Shown here one piece after another: positions 7,512-51,046 of a stretch of DNA of 64,000 bases. The notes under the pieces were generated by a model that worked only from the letters and a program-made list of their open reading frames with translations, was not told the DNA's origin and did no database searches. This stretch comes from Fimbriimonadaceae bacterium (GTDB taxonomy: Bacteria; Armatimonadota; Fimbriimonadia; Fimbriimonadales; Fimbriimonadaceae). Both the position numbers and the translations under genes were made by a program. Numbering within the stretch: position 1 is the stretch's first letter; each line of letters begins with the position of its first letter. Location: positions 558,001 through 622,000 of the forward strand of contig JABAQM010000001.1 in NCBI GenBank assembly GCA_019187105.1. The letters are read 5' to 3'.

Positions 7512-7988
7512 ATGATCGAACCATCCAAGCTGAACATTTTTTTTCACCCGCACGACCGCTTGCGCGTGACCGTGGGCGATGATCGGTCATATCCGACGGT
7601 CAAGCCGGTGTGGGCGTCGCCGATCAAGTTTCCCGGCCAATATCTCGCGCTTCTCGATGCCAAGGAACAGGAAATCGCGACGGTGAAGGATCCGAGGGAC
7701 TTACCTCCGGCTAGTCTGGAGGCGGTCAAAGCGGAACTGAAGCGGCGGTACCTGACAGCGACAATCCTCTCCGTCGACAAGGCGAAGGTCGAATTCGGCG
7801 CAACTTACTGGCACGTCACGACCGAACGGGGCGAGAAGGACTTTGTCACCCAGAGCCTCCAGGAGAACGCCCAGTGGATGGGGGAGCGTCATCTGCTGCT
7901 CATCGACGTTGACGGAAATCGCTTCGAGATTCCGAATATCGACGACCTCGACCTCCACAGCCGCGAACTTCTCGATTCCATCGTCTAA
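7512..7988 (+). CDS. DUF1854 family protein
   Basis: The 158-residue product matches the DUF1854 pattern: an N-terminal beta segment (LRVTVGDDRSYPTVKPVWASP), then ATILSVDKAKVEFGATYWHVTTERG, and the C-terminal LLIDVDGNRFEIPNIDDLDLHSRELL. Members are often found near ABC transporters or cyanophycin genes, neither of which is here. The function is unknown. ATG at 7512 is preferred over the upstream in-frame start at 7470 because the family fold begins there. The stop overlaps the convergent hydrolase gene by 4 bases. Confidence 0.8.
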   Translation: MIEPSKLNIFFHPHDRLRVTVGDDRSYPTVKPVWASPIKFPGQYLALLDAKEQEIATVKDPRDLPPASLEAVKAELKRRYLTATILSVDKAKVEFGATYWHVTTERGEKDFVTQSLQENAQWMGERHLLLIDVDGNRFEIPNIDDLDLHSRELLDSIV

Positions 7989-8932
7989 CCATGGATCGCG
8001 CTGAAGGCGGTGAGGTCAACAAGACGCCGAAACGCGTGGATGCGGTCGTTGTTCCGCGTCGGATGGACTCGATTCGTCACCAGGGCGACAAACGTGCGGT
8101 TAACCGGATCGATCCAGAGGCTGCACCCGGTAAATCCGAGATGGCCAAACGTACGTGGAGACCATACGCCGCAATCGTCATCCTTAATCGCCCAGCCGAG
8201 TCCGCGCGTGTAGCCGGGAGGCTGGGGCCGAATCCAAGCATCCCAGCTTGAAAGGTTATTGAGCACGTGCTGGGCGAAGATCGCCAGGTCTCCGGCGGTC
8301 CCAAAGAGCCCGGCGTTGCCGGCAACGCCGCCTAGAAATCGTGCATTTTCGTCATGCGGCTGGCCGATCGGCACGCCATCCTCGGTCGGAGCGGCGGAAC
8401 CTGGTCTAAACCCGGTGTCCCTGAGGCCGAGGGGGTCGGCCACCAACTCGGCAAACAGCTTGTCGAGCATCCTCCCACTTTGGTGTTCGAGGCAGCGCTG
8501 AAGTTGAAGGAAGCCCACGCACGAATATAGGGTCTCTCCCAGATGTGGCTTGTCTTGATCCTCGATTAGTCGCCAAGCGCCCTCCGCCGATTCGGAGATT
8601 TGGTCGTATCGAACGTGGGCCGGCAATCCCGACCGGTGTGCCAGGAGGTCCCTGATCGATGCCAGTTCCACGGCGCCCTCTTCGACGAGGGCATGAGCAA
8701 CGGCCGTCGTACACACAACCTTGGTGAGGCTGGCAAGGTCGAACTTCGTCGACGATGAAACCGGCTCGCCGCCGTGGAAGGAGGTGCGGCCAAATGAGAT
8801 GGTTTCAGACGACTCCGGCGTGCCGAATGCCAGCTGCCCGCCCGGTGCAACCCCAGCCTTAACCGCACGCTCCAGCAATGGATCCCAATGTTCGCGCAAT
8901 GAACTGCAGTTTATGACCGAACCGCCCTTCAA
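7985..8932 (-). CDS. Serine hydrolase, class C beta-lactamase-like
   Basis: The 315-residue protein carries the penicillin-binding SxxK motif as S68-L-T-K71 (FDLASLTKVV), followed by RDLLAHRSGLP. LYSCVGF stands where YxN is expected, so the Asn is replaced by Cys. HLGFTG takes the place of the KTG/HTG box. Such proteins are esterases, D-aminopeptidases or D,D-peptidases as often as lactamases. There is no signal peptide, so a cytoplasmic role is likely. The start is TTG at 8932, the only usable codon before the conserved region. It is divergent from the gene at 8971. Confidence 0.82.
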   Translation of the reverse strand: MKGGSVINCSSLREHWDPLLERAVKAGVAPGGQLAFGTPESSETISFGRTSFHGGEPVSSSTKFDLASLTKVVCTTAVAHALVEEGAVELASIRDLLAHRSGLPAHVRYDQISESAEGAWRLIEDQDKPHLGETLYSCVGFLQLQRCLEHQSGRMLDKLFAELVADPLGLRDTGFRPGSAAPTEDGVPIGQPHDENARFLGGVAGNAGLFGTAGDLAIFAQHVLNNLSSWDAWIRPQPPGYTRGLGWAIKDDDCGVWSPRTFGHLGFTGCSLWIDPVNRTFVALVTNRVHPTRNNDRIHAFRRLVDLTAFSAIHG

Positions 8933-8958
8933 AAATCAGCTCGCGGAATCCATAATAT

Positions 8959-8964
8959 CAATAT
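8959..8964 (+). promoter_or_regulatory. Putative -10 hexamer, leaderless
   Basis: CAATAT lies exactly six bases before the ATG at 8971, with no Shine-Dalgarno. The arrangement matches the other leaderless starts in the window. Confidence 0.45.
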
Positions 8965-8970
8965 CTGACC

Positions 8971-9279
8971 ATGACGAGCACCCTGGAACTACCTCTTCTA
9001 GGCTTGGAAACGGAATTCCCAGAATCTCTGTTCCTGCTCGCTCACCCGTCCAGCGGTAAATACGGCTGCTATTGCCATGAAGGAATTCATGGTCTGGCCT
9101 GCTTCAGCACCGAAGGAGCGGCCTTCCGCTTTGCGGAGTGGATCGACCTCTCCGGCATGATGACCGAAGAAGTGACCTTTGACGAAGCCCGCGATATCGC
9201 CAAGGGCCGGCCAATGCCGATCGTGTCGCTGATGCTTCTTGACAGCCTGCAATCGCCGAAGATCCACTTCGTCCGCTAA
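8971..9279 (+). CDS. Small hypothetical protein
   Basis: The 102-residue product is not recognised. It is a soluble acidic protein with two close cysteines (YGCYCHEG), no signal peptide, and a DEARDIAKGRP segment resembling small helix-turn proteins that act as adaptors. The start is supported by a -10 hexamer six bases upstream. It may be cytoplasmic. The 42-base spacing to the next gene allows cotranscription, although that gene has its own promoter. Confidence 0.6.
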   Translation: MTSTLELPLLGLETEFPESLFLLAHPSSGKYGCYCHEGIHGLACFSTEGAAFRFAEWIDLSGMMTEEVTFDEARDIAKGRPMPIVSLMLLDSLQSPKIHFVR

Positions 9280-9309
9280 TCCGTTGCAACCCTTTTTGAC
9301 TTTCGCAGG

Positions 9310-9315
9310 TAAAAC
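9310..9315 (+). promoter_or_regulatory. Putative -10 hexamer, leaderless
   Basis: TAAAAC lies exactly six bases before the ATG at 9322, with no Shine-Dalgarno. Confidence 0.5.
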
Positions 9316-9321
9316 CTGGCG

Positions 9322-9759
9322 ATGCTCCGTTCCCTAGGGTTACTCGTTTCCATCCTTGCCGCTGGGTCTGGGTTCGCCCAAAGTTTCATAGGAACCTACA
9401 AAGGCAAGATGACGGTCGACCGTGCCACCGTGTCCGCGAACCTCACTCCAGAGCAGAAGCAGATGGTCGAGAAAGCGCTGAAGGACCTGGACAAGATGAA
9501 ACTCACGCTGACCATCAGCAAGGACAAGACCTTCAAGCTGGTTTCGGTGGGCGGACCTCAAACCGCCAAGTCTAACTCTTCCAGTGGAACTTGGGCACAG
9601 ACTGGGAAGAGCCTCAAGCTGACCTTCAAGACCGTAAACGACAAGCCCATTTCCAAGGCACAGGAGCAAACACTTTCCATTGCCGACGGCGGCAAGACCT
9701 TGACCCTGTCCCCAGGGCAGGGTGCCGGAAAGTCCAAAGTCGTGTTTACACGGTCGTAG
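9322..9759 (+). CDS. Small secreted protein of unknown function
   Basis: The 145-residue product starts with a Sec signal peptide (LGLLVSILAAGSGFAQ, cleavage after about residue 19). It continues as a lysine/threonine-rich beta protein with the recurring phrase IGTYKGKMTV ... SSGTWAQTGKSLKLTF ... GGKTLTLSPG. This looks like the lipocalin-like small secreted domains common in this kind of genome. The function is unknown. The next gene starts 11 bases after the stop. Confidence 0.7.
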   Translation: MLRSLGLLVSILAAGSGFAQSFIGTYKGKMTVDRATVSANLTPEQKQMVEKALKDLDKMKLTLTISKDKTFKLVSVGGPQTAKSNSSSGTWAQTGKSLKLTFKTVNDKPISKAQEQTLSIADGGKTLTLSPGQGAGKSKVVFTRS

Positions 9760-9770
9760 GGGCAAGAACG

Positions 9771-11063
9771 ATGGCTCGGCACGTTATCCAGCCGAATGTT
9801 CATAACCGCATACAAGCGCTGGACATTCTTCGTGGGTTTGCCGTGCTTGGCATACTGCTTGCCAATATTCCCGCCTTTAGCGGTCCTTATTGGTCGGCAA
9901 TGGCGTCCGGCCAGAAGCACGAGTCGATCGGCCTCGTCGAAGCACTAACCTACGTCTTCGTAACAGGAAAGTTCCGAACTCCTCTCGCTATCATGTTCGG
10001 TGTTGGCTTGGTTCTTCAGTACCAACGCCGCATCGAAATTCCTCGGGCGTGGCCATGGGGCTATCTAAAGAGGAATGCCCTGCTCCTGGTGATTGGACTG
10101 CTTCACGTCATTTTCATCTGGAGCGGCGACATCCTCCTGACCTACGCCGTGGTTGCCTTCATTGCGGTCTGGTTCGCCAAGCTGAAGGACGAAGTGCTCA
10201 TGGTCCTCTCCATTATGGGGATCGTCCTCATCACGCTTGCCGCCGCTGGCTTCGCTTATGCCCTCACGGATCCGACGTTTGCGAGCATGATGGGCAGCGA
10301 GTCGAAATGGCTGACGCCCGCCGAAGAAATGCGTGTGTTCGGCGCCGGCACATACATCGACCAGATGCTATTTAGAGCGAAGTTTGCCGCCTCCCTGATC
10401 GTCAGCTCGATCGTCTTTGCACCTGCATTTGTCCCTTACTTTCTGCTCGGCATGTGGCTCGGAAAGATTGGCTTCTTAGCCTCGCCAAGCAGCCATCCCA
10501 AGCTTAAGCGTTGGCTCTTGGGGCTCGGCTTGGGGCTCGGATTAGCTCTCAACGCGATGAGCTTCATGAGCCTTGGCAAGCCGTGGTCGTTCGCCGGTTA
10601 CCTTTACGCCGAGGGAGTCGCCGGCCCCATTCTGGGCATCGGCTACCTCACGTTGGCAGCCGTGATCGTGGAAGAGACTCGGAATGCGGTAACCGGTGCC
10701 ATTGAAAGGGTTGGCAGGATGGCGCTGACCGCCTATCTGGCCCAATCGGTGATCGCAACCGCCATCTTCTACAGCGGAATTGGACTGTTCGGCAAGACGT
10801 CCTCGTCCCAGGACCTCCTGTTCGTCATCCTGATCTGGGCCATCGTGATTGCCTTCTGCAACTTCTGGATGAAGCGTTTCTCGATTGGACCAGTGGAGTG
10901 GCTATGGCGGTCCGCAACGGAGTTCCGAGTCCTGGCGATTAAAGTCGGACCTCCGACCACGGTCGGAGGTCCGCCCTCTACCATCGAAAGTTCAGCATCA
11001 CTCCCGGACTCTTCAGCTCGATTAGATACAGACCGACCGCATGCCGACCAATCGAGTAGTTAA
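9771..11063 (+). CDS. DUF418/YeiB-family membrane protein
   Basis: The family start is clear: IQALDILRGFAVLGILLANI, then a stretch ending in GKFRTPLAIMFGVGLVLQ, and the C-terminal DUF418 segment (GRMALTAYLAQSVIATAIFY, then FCNFWMKRFSIGPVEWLWRS). About ten hydrophobic helices span the 430 residues. ATG at 9771 is chosen because the open frame upstream lies inside the preceding gene. The last 40 residues (after WRSATEFRVLAIKV) are not typical and run through a hairpin and into the opposite gene, so the conserved protein really ends near 10930. The function is unknown; acyl transfer or transport has been suggested for relatives. Confidence 0.82.
   Translation: MARHVIQPNVHNRIQALDILRGFAVLGILLANIPAFSGPYWSAMASGQKHESIGLVEALTYVFVTGKFRTPLAIMFGVGLVLQYQRRIEIPRAWPWGYLKRNALLLVIGLLHVIFIWSGDILLTYAVVAFIAVWFAKLKDEVLMVLSIMGIVLITLAAAGFAYALTDPTFASMMGSESKWLTPAEEMRVFGAGTYIDQMLFRAKFAASLIVSSIVFAPAFVPYFLLGMWLGKIGFLASPSSHPKLKRWLLGLGLGLGLALNAMSFMSLGKPWSFAGYLYAEGVAGPILGIGYLTLAAVIVEETRNAVTGAIERVGRMALTAYLAQSVIATAIFYSGIGLFGKTSSSQDLLFVILIWAIVIAFCNFWMKRFSIGPVEWLWRSATEFRVLAIKVGPPTTVGGPPSTIESSASLPDSSARLDTDRPHADQSSS
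10946..10973 (-). terminator. 12-bp hairpin after the interrupted minus-strand gene
   Basis: CGGACCTCCGAC at 10946-10957 pairs perfectly with GTCGGAGGTCCG at 10962-10973 around a 4-base loop. On the minus strand it lies five bases after the stop at 10978 and is followed by ACTTTAAT. It therefore fits as the terminator of that gene, although it is inside the plus-strand DUF418 frame. Confidence 0.6.
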
Positions 11064-36894: not shown

Positions 36895-38122
36895 TCACAC
36901 CAGTCGACGCCTTAGGATCGACACGGCACGATCGACGTCAGATTCCGAATTGAACAGGTGGCATGAGAGCCGCAGGCCCCCCACCTTCGGTAACCCCTTG
37001 ACCACCAAGTTGTCCTGCCCCAAGAGGGATGGGATCAGCTTAGGAATCTCGATCCTCTCGTCGACCTCGAAAGCGAGCATGGCCGTCGCCATAGCTCCAT
37101 CCCTGGGGCTGAGGACCTTGACGGGGAGTGATTTGATGCGGTCATAGACATTAGCATGAAGGTCAAGATTGTGTTGCTCGATCTTGGTCATGCCGAGCCG
37201 ATTCACGTAATCGATGGCAGCTCCGAGGCCCTGAAAGCCCAGATGATTCGAAAGTCCGGTCGTGTCATTTTGGGCCTTGGTGTCGGTCAGGCGGGTTAGA
37301 AGCTCCAGGCGGGGAGCAGCTGCGCGGCCTCACATACATGAAGCCGGTTCCTTTCGGCCCGAGAAGCCACTTGTGGCCAGGAGCGGCGTAGGCGTCGCAC
37401 CCGATCTGCTTAACGTCCACCGGAATGTTGCCGACGGCCTGCGCCCCGTCGATGATGGAAATCACGCCACGGCGACGGGCCAGTTCGCATAATTCTGCCG
37501 CAGGCAAGCGCAGGCCGTTCGTGTACAGCACGTGAGAGAATGAGATGGCTCGGGTCTTCGGCTTAATAGCCTTGGCGAAACGGTCTACGATCGCTTGTGG
37601 GTTACGCTCCTCTAAAGCAATCGGGATATCTTCCACTTGGACTCCTCGAGAACGCGCGTGGAACTTCCAGCAGTCATGTCCGCCCTCATGCTCCTGATCG
37701 GTGCTGAGGATGTGGTCGCCCGGCTGCAGCGACAAAGCAAACGCAAGGCGGTTCATAGCGTCCGACGTGCATCCCGTAAAGACAAGGTCCTCCTTGTCGC
37801 AGTTGAGAAACGCGCCGATCTTTTGACGAACTTTGTCGAGGTTATCAGTGCCTCTGGAGTACGACTCGGCAACCGGCGAACTCTCAATCAGATGCCACGT
37901 GGCGACCATTCGCTCAAGCACAACCTTCGGGCTGGGACCCACCGAGGCGGTATTCACGTAGGTCATGTTCGCGGGAAAGACAAAATCGCTGCGTCTAACG
38001 AGCCCTGCACGGTCCTCCGATTGGAGAACCTGACTGAAAAGCGACTTCGCAATTCCGGCGACTCCTGCAACGGCAGCCGAGGCCAGGACGGTTCGACGCG
38101 AGAGTTCAGGTTCTGGCACCAT
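36895..38122 (-). pseudogene. Tat-exported class V aminotransferase, frameshifted
   Basis: Frame one starts at ATG 38122 with a twin-arginine signal (ELSRRTVLASAAVAGVAG) and the fold-type I core: VFTGCTSDAMNRLAFALS, STDQEHEGGHDCWKFH, IIDGAQAVGNIPVD and the PLP Lys in YAAPGHKWLLGPKGTGFMYV. It then shifts frame near 37310. A second frame continues GLGAAIDYVNRLG and reaches the family C-terminus (GLPKVGGLRLSCHLFNS, then DVDRAVSILRR) at 36895. About 40 residues usual between these blocks are also missing. I read one gene broken by a frameshift, with a shortened core. A sequencing error cannot be excluded. TAGACT lies six bases before the start. Confidence 0.7.
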
Positions 38123-43430: not shown

Positions 43431-43718
43431 ATGAGTAACCGAGAAGAACTCGACCAGATCCATCGCCGCGAATTTCTCCTTAAGCTTTCGGGCGGAATCA
43501 TAGCGGTTGCAGGAGCCTTCGTGCTCGGCGGCTGCGGCGGAGTCGGCGTGCCGGATATAGGCTCAAGCTCGTCTTCATCGAGCTCGTCCTCTAGCTCGTC
43601 CTCCTCCTCGAGCAGCAGCTCCTCGTCGTCGAGCAGCTCATCCTCCTCCGACAGTAGCTCGTCCTCGTCCAGCAGCAGTTCGTCCTCGTCGAGCTCGTCA
43701 TCGTCGCGCGGTCGATAG
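43431..43718 (+). CDS. Exported lipoprotein ending in a long poly-serine tract
   Basis: The 95-residue product has an N-terminal HRREFLLKLSGGIIAVAGAFVLGGC: a twin-arginine pair with a Tat-like hydrophobic stretch and a lipobox Cys. After GGVGVPDIG it has 29 serines, one Asp, 18 serines and RGR at the C-terminus. All six serine codons are used (TCA, TCC, TCG, TCT, AGC, AGT), so the tract is kept by selection on the protein and not by DNA slippage. The glycosyltransferase gene starts one base after the stop. I infer that the serines are its O-glycosylation sites. The tract may form a surface glycan stalk. The start is ATG 43431; no clear ribosome site is seen. Confidence 0.8.
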   Translation: MSNREELDQIHRREFLLKLSGGIIAVAGAFVLGGCGGVGVPDIGSSSSSSSSSSSSSSSSSSSSSSSSSSSSSDSSSSSSSSSSSSSSSSSSRGR

Positions 43719-43719
43719 C

Positions 43720-44694
43720 GTGCGCAAGCTGATCCTAAAGAACTGGCAGTCGCCAGGCGACACCGTGATGCTGTCGGCTGCGGTTCGAGACCTGCACCTG
43801 TGCCACCCGGGACGATTCATCACGGACGTGCGGACGCCAAGTCCGGCGATCTGGGAAAACAATCCGTTTGTCACTCCCCTTCACGATGAGGACCCGGAAG
43901 CGTCGCTGATCGAGTGCCATTATCCGCTCGTTCACCAAAGCAACGAGCTTCCCTACCACTTCATCCACGGCTTCATTCAGCACCTGAATGCCGAGCTTGG
44001 TACCAACGTTCAGCCGACCCGATTCCACGGAGACATCCACCTCTCCCCGGACGAGGTAGCCGAAATCGAAGGGATGGGAAACGACCGGCCCTACTGGCTC
44101 ATCGCGGCGGGGGGCAAGAGCGATTTCACCATCAAGTGGTGGTCTAACGAGCGGTATCAGCATGTCGTCGACCACTTTCGAGGTCGGATCGAGTTTGTCC
44201 AGGTTGGCGAAGCCCATCACTACCACAAGCCACTATCGGGAGTCGTCGACCTGCGCGGGATGACCAATCTGCGGCAGCTGATCCGCCTGGTGTATGCCAG
44301 CCAAGGCGTCGTCACCGGAGTCAGTCTCCTGATGCACCTTGCCGCTGCCATCCAGACCCCGCCCGGAGCCCTGCGCAACCGGCCCTGCGTCGTCGTGGCG
44401 GGAGGGCGCGAACCCGTCCAGTGGTTCGCCTATCCCCACCATCAGGTAATCCATCGGTTGGGCGCGCTCCCTTGCTGCGACAACGGCGGATGCTGGAAGT
44501 CGCGCACGGTGCCGCTGGGTGACGGTGACGAAAAGGACAACCCGGAAGCGCTATGCGTGGACGTCGTCAGAGATCTGCCGCGGTGCATGGATCTGATAAC
44601 GGCAGACGACGTTATCCGCGCGATCGAAGTGTATTTTGAGGGGGGCGCGGCCCACTATCTCTCCGAGCCGGCGCTTGCGTCTGCTCGGCGCTAG
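43720..44694 (+). CDS. GT9-type glycosyltransferase, probable modifier of the poly-serine protein
   Basis: The 324-residue protein resembles GT9 heptosyltransferase-fold enzymes: KLILKNWQSPGDTVMLSAAVRDL at the N-terminus, PYWLIAAGGKSDFTIKWWS and VVDLRGMTNLRQLIRLVYAS in the donor-binding half, with GVVTGVSLLMHLAAA. The last third has a cysteine cluster (LPCCDNGGCWK, then ALCVDVV and LPRCMDLI) like the iron-binding Cys motifs of autotransporter heptosyltransferases (TibC/BAHT type). GTG at 43720 follows the preceding stop by one base, so the two are translationally coupled. It is cytoplasmic, which fits modification before Tat export of a folded peptide. Confidence 0.82.
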   Translation: MRKLILKNWQSPGDTVMLSAAVRDLHLCHPGRFITDVRTPSPAIWENNPFVTPLHDEDPEASLIECHYPLVHQSNELPYHFIHGFIQHLNAELGTNVQPTRFHGDIHLSPDEVAEIEGMGNDRPYWLIAAGGKSDFTIKWWSNERYQHVVDHFRGRIEFVQVGEAHHYHKPLSGVVDLRGMTNLRQLIRLVYASQGVVTGVSLLMHLAAAIQTPPGALRNRPCVVVAGGREPVQWFAYPHHQVIHRLGALPCCDNGGCWKSRTVPLGDGDEKDNPEALCVDVVRDLPRCMDLITADDVIRAIEVYFEGGAAHYLSEPALASARR

Positions 44695-47217: not shown

Positions 47218-47394
47218 GTGACCGGCTATGGACCTATACCTGCTATAAACCGCGGGACGCTCGGTGGAGCCGTCTTTCTACAGCACTTGGGTCGAAGCAA
47301 ACTCAGACCAAAAGGATGTCCCCAACAAAAATTCTTGTCGTACAATGATCGCTTGGACGCCATGTCCGTTTCTTTTCTGGGGGAATCCACAATA

Positions 47395-50148
47395 ATGTTG
47401 CACGCTGTTTCGCAGGTTCTTCGGCACGCCAGTATACGTTTGCCGCTGGTGTCCGGACTCGGTCTCTTGTTGGCCACAAGCGGCGCAGCCCAAAATCGAC
47501 CGGACATTGACTGGATGGCCGGCGGTCACTCAGGATTGGTGGACGTTAAGTACTCCGCCGATGGTGCGGTGCTGGTATCTGGCTCATTTGACAAGACTGT
47601 CAAGCTCTGGAGGACTTCGGACGGAAGACTTCTCCGGACAATCACGACCGGGTCGGAGGTATGGAGCATCGAGATCACTGATGATGGGGCCAGCGTGCTG
47701 GCGGGATGCGCCGACCAGACCATCAAGGTGTATCGTGTCTCAGACGGCAAGTTGACTCAAACCCTTACCGATGCCGGCGGATACGCACCAATTGCGTTAT
47801 CGCCAGACGACACGATGGTGGCGGCGAGAAATGAAGAGGGCGGCACCGTCAATGTCTGGAGGATTTCCGATGGCACCCTCGTGCGCGCGTTTACCGACCC
47901 CTTCCTCGTCAAAGATGTGGATTTCTCGGTTGATGGGGAACACGTAGCGGTTGCCTATGCCAATGACAAGGCCAAGATCTGGCGCCTCTCCGACGGCTCG
48001 CTCCGGCATACTCTACTGCACGGGGGGATGGAGACCCGTGTCGCCTGCTCACCCGACGGAGCGCTAGTCGCAACCGGCAGCACCGATAGGACTGCCAAAC
48101 TTTGGCGCATATCTGATGGAGGACTGATCCGGACGCTTACAGCTACAGATTGGGTTGAGGATGTAGCGTTCTCCAAAGACGGCCTGTTGGTCGGCGTTAC
48201 GGAGATTGGCGGGTTCATTCGCACATGGCGTGTTGCAAGCGGCCAACAAGAGAACGTGTTGCCAGCATGGAGTGTGAGGTACATCGACTTTGCACCAGAT
48301 GGAGAATCCATCGCGGCTGGGCTCGACCGTGGTGTCATCCAGGTTTATCGGGCGCATGCCGATTCCAGCTTCCGCACTTTTTCGGATCACACCGAGGCGG
48401 TTATCTCCCTGGCCTATTCTCCGGATGGAGCCTTGATCGCTTCGGGCAGCGAGGACAATACGATCAAGCTGAGACGCCAATCGGATGGAGTGGTCGTGCG
48501 GACTTTGACGGGTCATACGGCAGACATCTACGCTCTCCAATTCTCCCCAGATGGCGCCATTCTCGCATCGGGCTCCGCGGACGGCACCGCCAGGCTCTGG
48601 CAGGTTTCGAATGGAGCGGTTCTCCGAACGATCAGCGGGGATCCCAATTACGTAGGCGGCGTTGCCTTTGCTCCCAGCGGCACCGAACTTGCCACTTGTG
48701 GTGGCCAGCCGACGATAAAGCTTTGGAATCTGGCGGACGGCTCATTGATTCGAACCTTTGCCAACAACGCCGCGACGTTTACGATCGACTTCACCTCAGA
48801 TGGAAGCATTTTGGTGAGCGGCGATAACGCCTCGAACGTCAAGGTCTGGCAGGTTTCCACTGGCAGTTTACTGCGCACCATGACCGATCACAACGACCGC
48901 GTCAATTCGGTTTCAATTTCTCCCGATGACTTTACCGTCGTTTCGGGAAGTAACGACAGGACATTCAAAGAGTGGATCATTAACAGCGGATTCCTACGAT
49001 ACTCCTCGCCGACCTTGGCATGGGACGTAACCGGCGTCTGCTACTCGCCGGACGGACGACTGGTTGCGGCATCGATCCTGAATGGCGATTGCACGGTTTG
49101 GAACTGGACTACATTGTTACGCAACTTTACGGGGCACGTTGGCGGGGCGAGGGCTGTTGCGTTTGCTCCCGATGGGCGTCATCTAAGCGTCGGCGGCAGC
49201 GACTCCAAACATAAGGAGTGGCCCGTCCACGACCTCTATCCAACCGAGGTCTTAACCAAACACTTTCTTGCGGTGCGCAGTGTCGCCTACTCTGCCGACG
49301 GCAGCTTGGTCGCCACCGGAGGCGAAGACAACACCATCCGGATCTGCAATGCGTCCGATGGTAGTCTCGTCCGAAAGCTCACGCTAACCGATGCCATCGT
49401 CGACAGTATCGCCTTCTCACCCAACGGGTTGACGCTAGCTACGCTCGGGGGCTACGAACTGACCCTCTGGCGGATTTCGGATGGCAAGAGGATGGCATCT
49501 CATGGCACGAACTACTTGGCCTGGTCCATTAGCTTCTCACCTGATGGGAACTTGTTGGCGGCTGGCAGCAGCGACGGTTGGGTGAGGGTATATGCCGTCG
49601 ACGTCGACAGCATCCTGCTCTTGGCAACTTTCGGCAACCACTTGGATCCAGTGCGGAGAGTTGCCTTTGGTCCAAATGGCCAGACGCTGGCCGCTGGAGA
49701 TGCAAGTGGCCGCATCTCGACATACAGGGTCTCAGATGGATTTGAGCTCACCCGGATGTTCCAGATCGACCCGGTCCTGGCGCTTGCCTACTCACCAGAT
49801 GGGCAGACCCTCGCAACCGGAGAATGGAACAAGGTGTCCCTATGGTCGACTACCACAGGACTTCTCGTTCAAGAGTTGTCGCACGCCGGGTTCGTCAATA
49901 CACTGGCATACTCTCCCAACGGCGATCTGCTTGGCGGTACTCGTAGCGCGACGATCAGGATTTGGGCGCCAAAAGGTGACAGCATGAAGCTGATTCGGAC
50001 CTACGGGCTTGAGACGGGTTCGGATGGTGGAGTCATCTCTGCTGCGTTCTCGCCGGATGGCCGCAGATTCTTCTACGGCCGTGACGACGGCACGGCGATT
50101 ATGGCTTTCTTCTCGCGGCTCCTGCCCCTGCCCGTCTTGGGAAGGTAG
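47395..50148 (+). CDS. Secreted WD40-repeat protein
   Basis: The 917-residue product starts with a signal peptide (RLPLVSGLGLLLATSGAAQ), followed by about twenty WD40-type repeats. The repeat core is V-x-x-x-x-Y-S-P-D-G-x-x-L-x-S-G-S-x-D-x-T-I-K-L-W-R-x-S-D-G-x-L-x-R-T-L. This is long enough for two or three propellers. No other domain is seen. The frame is open upstream, but ATG 47395 follows GGGGGAAT and gives the signal. A TACAAT hexamer at 47341 probably starts the transcript. The partners are unknown. Confidence 0.85.
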   Translation: MLHAVSQVLRHASIRLPLVSGLGLLLATSGAAQNRPDIDWMAGGHSGLVDVKYSADGAVLVSGSFDKTVKLWRTSDGRLLRTITTGSEVWSIEITDDGASVLAGCADQTIKVYRVSDGKLTQTLTDAGGYAPIALSPDDTMVAARNEEGGTVNVWRISDGTLVRAFTDPFLVKDVDFSVDGEHVAVAYANDKAKIWRLSDGSLRHTLLHGGMETRVACSPDGALVATGSTDRTAKLWRISDGGLIRTLTATDWVEDVAFSKDGLLVGVTEIGGFIRTWRVASGQQENVLPAWSVRYIDFAPDGESIAAGLDRGVIQVYRAHADSSFRTFSDHTEAVISLAYSPDGALIASGSEDNTIKLRRQSDGVVVRTLTGHTADIYALQFSPDGAILASGSADGTARLWQVSNGAVLRTISGDPNYVGGVAFAPSGTELATCGGQPTIKLWNLADGSLIRTFANNAATFTIDFTSDGSILVSGDNASNVKVWQVSTGSLLRTMTDHNDRVNSVSISPDDFTVVSGSNDRTFKEWIINSGFLRYSSPTLAWDVTGVCYSPDGRLVAASILNGDCTVWNWTTLLRNFTGHVGGARAVAFAPDGRHLSVGGSDSKHKEWPVHDLYPTEVLTKHFLAVRSVAYSADGSLVATGGEDNTIRICNASDGSLVRKLTLTDAIVDSIAFSPNGLTLATLGGYELTLWRISDGKRMASHGTNYLAWSISFSPDGNLLAAGSSDGWVRVYAVDVDSILLLATFGNHLDPVRRVAFGPNGQTLAAGDASGRISTYRVSDGFELTRMFQIDPVLALAYSPDGQTLATGEWNKVSLWSTTTGLLVQELSHAGFVNTLAYSPNGDLLGGTRSATIRIWAPKGDSMKLIRTYGLETGSDGGVISAAFSPDGRRFFYGRDDGTAIMAFFSRLLPLPVLGR

Positions 50149-50281: not shown

Positions 50282-51046
50282 CTATCGGCGCCGACGAGCC
50301 ATCAAGCCGACGCCCATCAACAGGGCTAACGCAGTTATGGGTTCGGGCACGGGCTCGTAGCGGATGGTCAGCTCTGGCGGAGGAACGATTCCGGGAATAT
50401 CGGAAAGCCCATAAAGGAGCTCATCGCCTTCGAGATAATCGCCCTCGCCATCCAGCCGCTCGTCATGCGACCAGGTGGGCATCCAGCCCGTTATCGTCAC
50501 ATCGCCGCCCCGGATGGAGCTGATAATGCTCTTGCCAAAGGCGTTCATGTGAATTTCCGTCGTAAAAGGAAACTCGTACTCCTCGGACATGGAAAAGACG
50601 TAGGGGTCGGCAACGGCAAAATCGTTCATCCCGTCGAAGATCGTCTGGGCTTCGTCGGTGGTCAGGTCGGATCGAACCATTTCGAGTCCCGGCGTAAAGG
50701 TCGCTCCAAGTTGGAAGGTCTCGGTCGGGTCCTTCTTCGTCTCGTCGAAAGGATCGAGCCCAAAGATCAGGCTGGTCGAGGCAGCCATTTTGAGTTTGAT
50801 GTGTACATCGATGACTTCCCCTTCGAAATCTGGAATGTGGTACCAGAAGAAGCTGCGGCGCTCGGAAGTCCGCACCCCGCCAACGGTTCCGTAGCCGACG
50901 AAGTAGTTCTGATGCTCGATCTTGTTGTCGGCGAATCCCCCATCGAAGAACCCGCCCACCTGCAACGGTGTAACGACTAACTCGTCCGCCCACACCGTGG
51001 GAGATAGCGAAACAAACAGGCACATTGCGAGTAGCGTCGTCTTCAT
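50282..51046 (-). CDS. PEP-CTERM sorting-domain protein
   Basis: The 254-residue protein has a signal peptide (LAMCLFVSLSPTVWA), a beta-sandwich-like mature part with DUF-type phrases (FFWYHIPDFEGEVIDVHIKL), and the C-terminal PEP-CTERM tail VPEPITALALLMGVGLMARR. The exosortase recognising the tail is not in the window. GGAGGG lies ten bases before the ATG, and a TATACT hexamer 30-40 bases upstream probably starts the transcript. Confidence 0.88.
   Translation of the reverse strand: MKTTLLAMCLFVSLSPTVWADELVVTPLQVGGFFDGGFADNKIEHQNYFVGYGTVGGVRTSERRSFFWYHIPDFEGEVIDVHIKLKMAASTSLIFGLDPFDETKKDPTETFQLGATFTPGLEMVRSDLTTDEAQTIFDGMNDFAVADPYVFSMSEEYEFPFTTEIHMNAFGKSIISSIRGGDVTITGWMPTWSHDERLDGEGDYLEGDELLYGLSDIPGIVPPPELTIRYEPVPEPITALALLMGVGLMARRRR

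Follow-up and report, generated by a model that had tools for sequence, protein, structure and literature searches.

A GT9 glycosyltransferase recurrently linked to poly-serine proteins in bacteria and phages

What is the role of a glycosyltransferase whose gene begins directly behind that of a small protein ending in almost nothing but serine? The two genes lie in the window analysed here, a 64,000-nucleotide stretch of the genome of a Fimbriimonadaceae bacterium (Armatimonadota). We predict, with a probability of roughly three in four, that they form an acceptor-plus-enzyme pair in which the enzyme, a cytoplasmic glycosyltransferase of family GT9 that probably uses ADP-heptose, O-glycosylates the poly-serine tract itself and not a folded partner. 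No description of such a GT9/poly-serine system was found in the open-access library that was searched.

The gene pair and its products

The 95-residue product of the first gene reads, in translation, MSNREELDQIHRREFLLKLSGGIIAVAGAFVLGGCGGVGVPDIG, followed by 29 serines, one aspartate, 18 serines and RGR. The segment HRREFLLKLSGGIIAVAGAFVLGGC is a signal of the twin-arginine, lipobox type, and nine residues separate it from the first serine block. Signals of the Tat and lipoprotein kinds were called by motif reading and cross-species conservation. By motif reading, the protein has the RRxFL motif, hydrophobic stretch and lipobox Cys of a Tat lipoprotein; both arginines of the RR motif are invariant across 12 aligned relatives, and a Cys in an AAC, AGC, SGC or GGC-type context is present at the lipobox position in most relatives. 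TatC is encoded by the host genome. The poly-serine reading frame stops at TAG (43716-43718) and the GT9 gene starts with GTG at 43720, one base further on; the sequence-only reading of a 95-residue Tat/lipobox poly-serine protein with the GT9 gene one base after its stop proved exact to the base. The coordinates are collected in Table 1.

Table 1. Features of the gene pair, in positions of the window
Feature	Position	Strand	Basis
Poly-serine Tat/lipobox-like protein, 95 aa, proposed acceptor	43431..43718	+	Translation; same architecture beside GT9 elsewhere
Twin-arginine motif RREFL, residues 12-16	43464..43478	+	Direct reading
Lipobox VLGGC, Cys35 predicted to be lipidated	43521..43535	+	Direct reading
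Ser29-Asp-Ser18 tract, proposed glycosylation target	43563..43706	+	Translation; support for purifying selection on orthologous tracts
GT9 glycosyltransferase, 324 aa	43720..44694	+	PF01075 match over cut-off; AlphaFold model; structural matches
Asp14 in SPGD motif, proposed catalytic base	43759..43761	+	114/114 ungapped homologues
Cys cluster C252, C253, C258, C279, C289, candidate metal site	44473..44586	+	Homologue conservation

The 47 serine codons of the tract comprise TCG (16), AGC (12), TCC (11), TCA (4), TCT (2) and AGT (2). The underlying DNA has no strong periodicity, and its longest exact repeat is 12 nt. Thus, the tract of the window is not a recent product of slippage, in line with the earlier argument that slippage is insufficient to give such a mixture of all six codons. 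Reading frames with at least 15 serines in 25 residues were absent from 400 kb taken from other stretches of the same genome and from 400 kb taken from three other GT9-bearing genomes; the only other one in the window encodes 78 aa (2439-2675).

The enzyme matches PF01075 with 29.6 bits (gathering score, 22) and is thus assigned to GT9 by sequence. Its AlphaFold model (monomer, pLDDT 86) has a GT-B fold of the heptosyltransferase type, and structure comparison returned a Veillonella GT9 protein (3tov, Z 22.8), HepII (1psw, 20.4), WaaC (19.7) and TibC (19.0). TibC came up in the structural comparison only; a search of the PDB with a sequence profile missed it. Asp14, Lys139, Arg185 and Glu231 are essentially invariant among 115 homologues. 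In the structural alignment residue 1 of the model aligns to TibC residue 96; the model therefore begins where the catalytic domain of TibC begins, and Asp14 falls, as a match by position, near Asp110, the proposed catalytic base of TibC (PMC4358343).

Four cysteines are similarly conserved (C252 and C258 in 115/115 homologues, C279 and C289 in 113/113 ungapped homologues). TibC has an iron finger built on Cys339, Cys342, Cys358 and Cys370 (PMC4358343). A candidate metal finger in the window enzyme is likely, since the count and relative position of the cysteines agree with TibC, although their spacing (C-x5-C-x20-C-x9-C) does not. The likeness to iron-binding heptosyltransferases of autotransporters that was claimed for this cluster from the letters of the window is supported in number and position.

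Recurrence of the pairing in bacteria and phages

We scored as serine-tract reading frames those with at least 18 serines in 25 residues within 7 kb centred on the GT9 gene. Such frames occur in 10/22 bacterial loci versus 0/80 control bins (p = 3e-8). Relatives of the enzyme are also encoded on 137 viral-contig stretches from IMG/VR, and 27 of the 80 that were kept have a serine-tract frame nearby, compared with 1/78 control bins on randomly drawn viral contigs (p = 2e-8); with near-copies removed, the count is 14/62 (p = 4e-5). The random contigs were drawn by a random 15-mer and are a control of similar size, unmatched for host; a macro-domain control scan, which had yielded four loci including the query, was replaced by this draw. 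Around the GT9 genes no other residue is enriched nearly as strongly as serine, and the serine-rich frames are concentrated within 1-3 kb of these genes.

A later set consists of GT9 loci obtained from whole-genome profile searches after the first scan. Serine tracts are present in 12 of these 15 loci (p = 8e-13 versus controls), namely in four of seven and in all eight further loci from one Acidobacteriota order; a fifth locus among the seven (L251) has a run of nine serines 43 bp from the enzyme. The pairing is not universal. No poly-serine was seen in the flanks that were read of L008 and L010 (wider flanks included for both), of L015, L016 and L023, and of many phages, and the most distant GT9 proteins (33-37% identity) are mostly without poly-serine neighbours. 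Two Verrucomicrobia loci scored as non-hits have a downstream protein that ends in a short serine run (L018, ...SSSSSSAP; L019, ...SSSSSAPH). A conserved neighbourhood in other genomes was the check proposed in the sequence-only reading, and the pairing does recur, enriched over controls in bacteria and phages. It is wider than the two-gene layout first described, as it extends to unrelated proteins and to phages.

After masking of serine-rich stretches, the 73 serine-tract partners fall into 44 families that are unrelated outside the tract, 29 of them singletons. Thus, it appears to be the tract as such that goes with the enzyme, and no argument for the serines as the enzyme's substrate is stronger than this repeated pairing with unrelated carriers. 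Tat lipoprotein-like proteins and phage-encoded proteins are among the carriers, together with proteins of other kinds: in L004 the tract follows transmembrane-looking segments, the L251 carrier is an RHS protein, that of L022 has a PKD domain, and that of L255 combines a tyrosinase domain with a long serine linker. One phage lineage (L052-L070) has up to four serine-tract proteins of different families around the enzyme, and homologous phage proteins occur with the serine tail (L050) and without it (L056 and other members of the lineage). PHROGs gave a hint of tail function for one phage partner only (L080, tail fiber assembly, E 2e-5), and the AlphaFold model of one phage partner was poor (pLDDT 53).

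Several individual loci have features of their own. In L052, L056, L060, L062-L064 and L070 the GT9 gene is divergently oriented, near a likely structural module. Two tandem GT9 copies (L255:5603-7609 and 7671-10580) lie beside the tyrosinase-domain protein, which has 970 residues and contains a long SSSGDSSGD repeat plus serine blocks. Three Bacteroidota loci (L009, L013, L022) encode, downstream of GT9, homologous proteins with a GDSGAVLV-type segment (trypsin-like by eye) that end in or contain serine tracts. In L257 (9235-10104), from the same family as the window genome, the serine tract runs directly into CLVGNAKVRL..., which by eye resembles the beginning of a Hint/intein-type domain and has no Pfam match.

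The pair found in the window recurs in Acidobacteriota. In the order of genome G1020, the enzyme is carried by 9/162 genomes, and all nine have a poly-serine protein of the window type immediately adjacent (one of the nine, L258, is interrupted by a stretch of N in the recorded sequence). In these partners RR-x-FL-x-x-L is followed by a hydrophobic stretch and a lipobox-like Cys; a short spacer, often with P-T-x-P, then leads into a serine-rich mature part, mostly 59-75% serine. A member of the Vicinamibacteria (Acidobacteriota, L012) has the same design adjoining GT9, with 55% serine. In a second Armatimonadota genome (L021) the poly-serine gene lies a few bases before GT9, and its product has a Tat-like RR signal and no clear lipobox. 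The enzyme precedes the serine gene in Acidobacteriota and follows it in Armatimonadota. The poly-serine lipoprotein-like proteins of L262, L263 and L265 (Acidobacteriota) end in GLLV and others in short basic tails (RGR, TAR, TLR), a possible C-terminal signal.

Codon differences within the serine tracts of three close orthologues are synonymous in 62 cases and non-synonymous in seven, where about 28% synonymous changes are expected without selection. The pairs are non-independent and the alignment is residue-based, making the statistics indicative, with a clear direction. These codon comparisons support purifying selection that keeps serine in close orthologues, and the earlier claim that the serines are selected as amino acids gains from them.

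The enzyme is sparsely distributed. It is missing from the 60 nearest relatives, apart from one weak match, and is carried by 4/291 genomes of the phylum Armatimonadota; two of the homologous loci (L007 and L021, Armatimonadetes) come from the same phylum as the window. Homologues with 52-66% identity were identified in seven phyla (Nitrospirota, Bacteroidota, Pseudomonadota, Acidobacteriota, Verrucomicrobiota, Planctomycetota and Armatimonadota). The phylogeny, a quick gene tree, places Nitrospira with Caballeronia and pairs a MAG of Bacteroidetes with one of Burkholderiales. Given the absence from near kin, the similarity across phyla and the mixed groupings, we infer that the gene is horizontally mobile. 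No homologue was identified in isolate phage or plasmid records.

Relation to known glycosylation systems

The closest parallel is with the bacterial autotransporter heptosyltransferases (BAHT) such as TibC and AAH. Common features are the GT9 fold, a catalytic-type Asp, four conserved cysteines near the C-terminus, a gene that adjoins that of the proposed protein acceptor, serine acceptors and presumed cytoplasmic glycosylation before export. BAHT enzymes have an N-terminal flattened beta-barrel (residues ~1-97) that precedes the catalytic domain, and their dodecamer is held by a beta-hairpin thumb (PMC4358343). The window enzyme, in contrast, starts at the first Rossmann strand and lacks the barrel. 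Its partner is the poly-serine protein, and partners in the homologous loci examined are also not autotransporters; the acceptors would be homopolymeric tracts on other proteins, including Tat lipoprotein-like and phage-encoded ones. Both the barrel and the autotransporter partner are defining, and we therefore reject BAHT membership. By analogy, the enzyme may well work like the BAHT enzymes.

The LPS heptosyltransferases WaaC and WaaF share the fold (Z about 20) and, probably, the use of a donor of the ADP-heptose type. The window enzyme differs in scoring far below the equivalog cut-off of LPS heptosyltransferase II (TIGR02195, 21.9 versus 134.6 bits) and in having a serine-rich protein, and not LPS core genes, as its genetic partner.

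Serine-rich repeat adhesins and SD-repeat proteins of Gram-positive hosts have Ser-X repeats, are modified by Gtf or Sdg glycosyltransferases and use accessory Sec or sortase routes. SdgA and SdgB are the glycosyltransferases of SD-repeat proteins (PMC3794999). Both systems resemble the pair described here in dedicating glycosyltransferases to a serine-rich, low-complexity surface protein, and differ in that their enzymes belong to other families and the window tract is near-pure serine. Long serine runs on exported proteins are also found in the carbohydrate-active enzymes of Saccharophagus and Teredinibacter, where they are known as linkers that join or anchor exported enzymes; we know of no partner glycosyltransferase for these linkers.

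Donor sugar, proposed mechanism and alternatives

In the Planctomycetota loci L016 and L017, HldE, the bifunctional enzyme of ADP-heptose synthesis, is encoded directly beside GT9, and L017 has the order GT9-HldE-poly-serine. HldE-like genes are present in 5/80 phage GT9 loci versus 0/73 control loci. The host genome encodes HldE domain II. As a discriminator the presence of HldE failed, since sister genomes that lack GT9 have it equally; it was not found in one GT9-positive MAG (G300). ADP-heptose is thus a plausible donor. A hexose or another NDP-sugar could be transferred to the poly-serine instead, which we consider unlikely, though the most credible of the alternatives: homology to GT9 is insufficient to identify the donor, GT9-positive genomes are not alone in having HldE and the enzyme falls far short of the NCBIfam heptosyltransferase II model, whereas ADP-heptose enzymes are among the nearest folds and HldE lies beside GT9 in the two Planctomycetota loci and near it in some phage loci. 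The first sugar may be extended in some organisms, as suggested by a PF11051 mannosyltransferase fused to GT9 (L003:4780-7002, upstream; L014:6001-7503, downstream) and by a second glycosyltransferase-like gene that recurs beside it (L004, L007, L016, L043).

We predict the following sequence of events for the window pair. In the cytoplasm, GT9 would add sugar to many of the 47 serines while the tract of the short precursor is unfolded, much as TibC and AAH act on the passengers of autotransporters. The RR signal would then direct the glycosylated precursor through Tat, and Cys35 would be lipidated after export. The outcome would be a small mucin-like brush, densely glycosylated and held at the cell surface by its lipid anchor, with a possible protective or adhesive role. 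Glycosylation before Tat export and a lipid-anchored stalk as the product were likewise proposed in the sequence-only reading. Tat export is not general, as the partners in L009, L013 and L022 have no obvious signal peptide by reading.

The pair may belong to a portable, horizontally mobile module, for which we see the chances as evenly balanced. One GT9 subfamily would recognise homopolymeric serine on any carrier and build a dense glycan brush, providing bacteria with minimal lipid-anchored mucin-like proteins and phages with a coat on their own proteins. If the proposal is correct, plain serine repeats receive sugar from one short enzyme in a simple system common to bacteria and their phages, serine glycosylation needs no folded recognition domain, and the poly-serine tracts of these exported and phage-encoded proteins are explained. 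Protein O-heptosylation would also gain a second branch beyond the autotransporters of pathogens, and a serine tag plus one enzyme would be a genetically simple tool for making mucin-like polymers.

It is improbable that the surface glycan made by GT9 is a separate one, either LPS or glycolipid, and that the poly-serine proteins are unmodified flexible stalks brought into the same surface-gene islands by chance. Many GT9 enzymes do act on LPS, and the Saccharophagus and Teredinibacter linkers are a precedent for poly-serine, but the pairing recurs with unrelated carriers, is a tight two-gene arrangement in one clade, and is found in phages with the serine proteins among phage genes. We give very little credence to the idea that the poly-serine is modified otherwise, for example by phosphorylation, for which serine is a common target, while the target of GT9 is a nearby residue or another protein: a casual look at the 44 partner families revealed no recurrent kinase, and HldE and other glycosyltransferases recur near GT9. 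Neutral expansion of the tract by slippage with coincidental adjacency is scarcely credible, even if homopolymer tracts can expand and several short runs of TCG/TCC are present in this one. It is contradicted by the cassette conserved in other genomes, and the codon mixing without strong period, the synonymous excess among orthologues and the enrichment over controls speak against it.

Glycosylation of the tract by GT9 remains our preferred reading of the pair. Elsewhere in the window, a Tat-signal class V aminotransferase-like frame (36895-38122, minus strand) appears split into two open reading frames (37265-38122 and 36895-37206), which suggests a frameshift or a sequencing error. Downstream of the pair, a 976-residue protein of WD40-like repeats (47218-50148, plus strand) adjoins a PEP-CTERM-like protein (50282-51046, minus strand).
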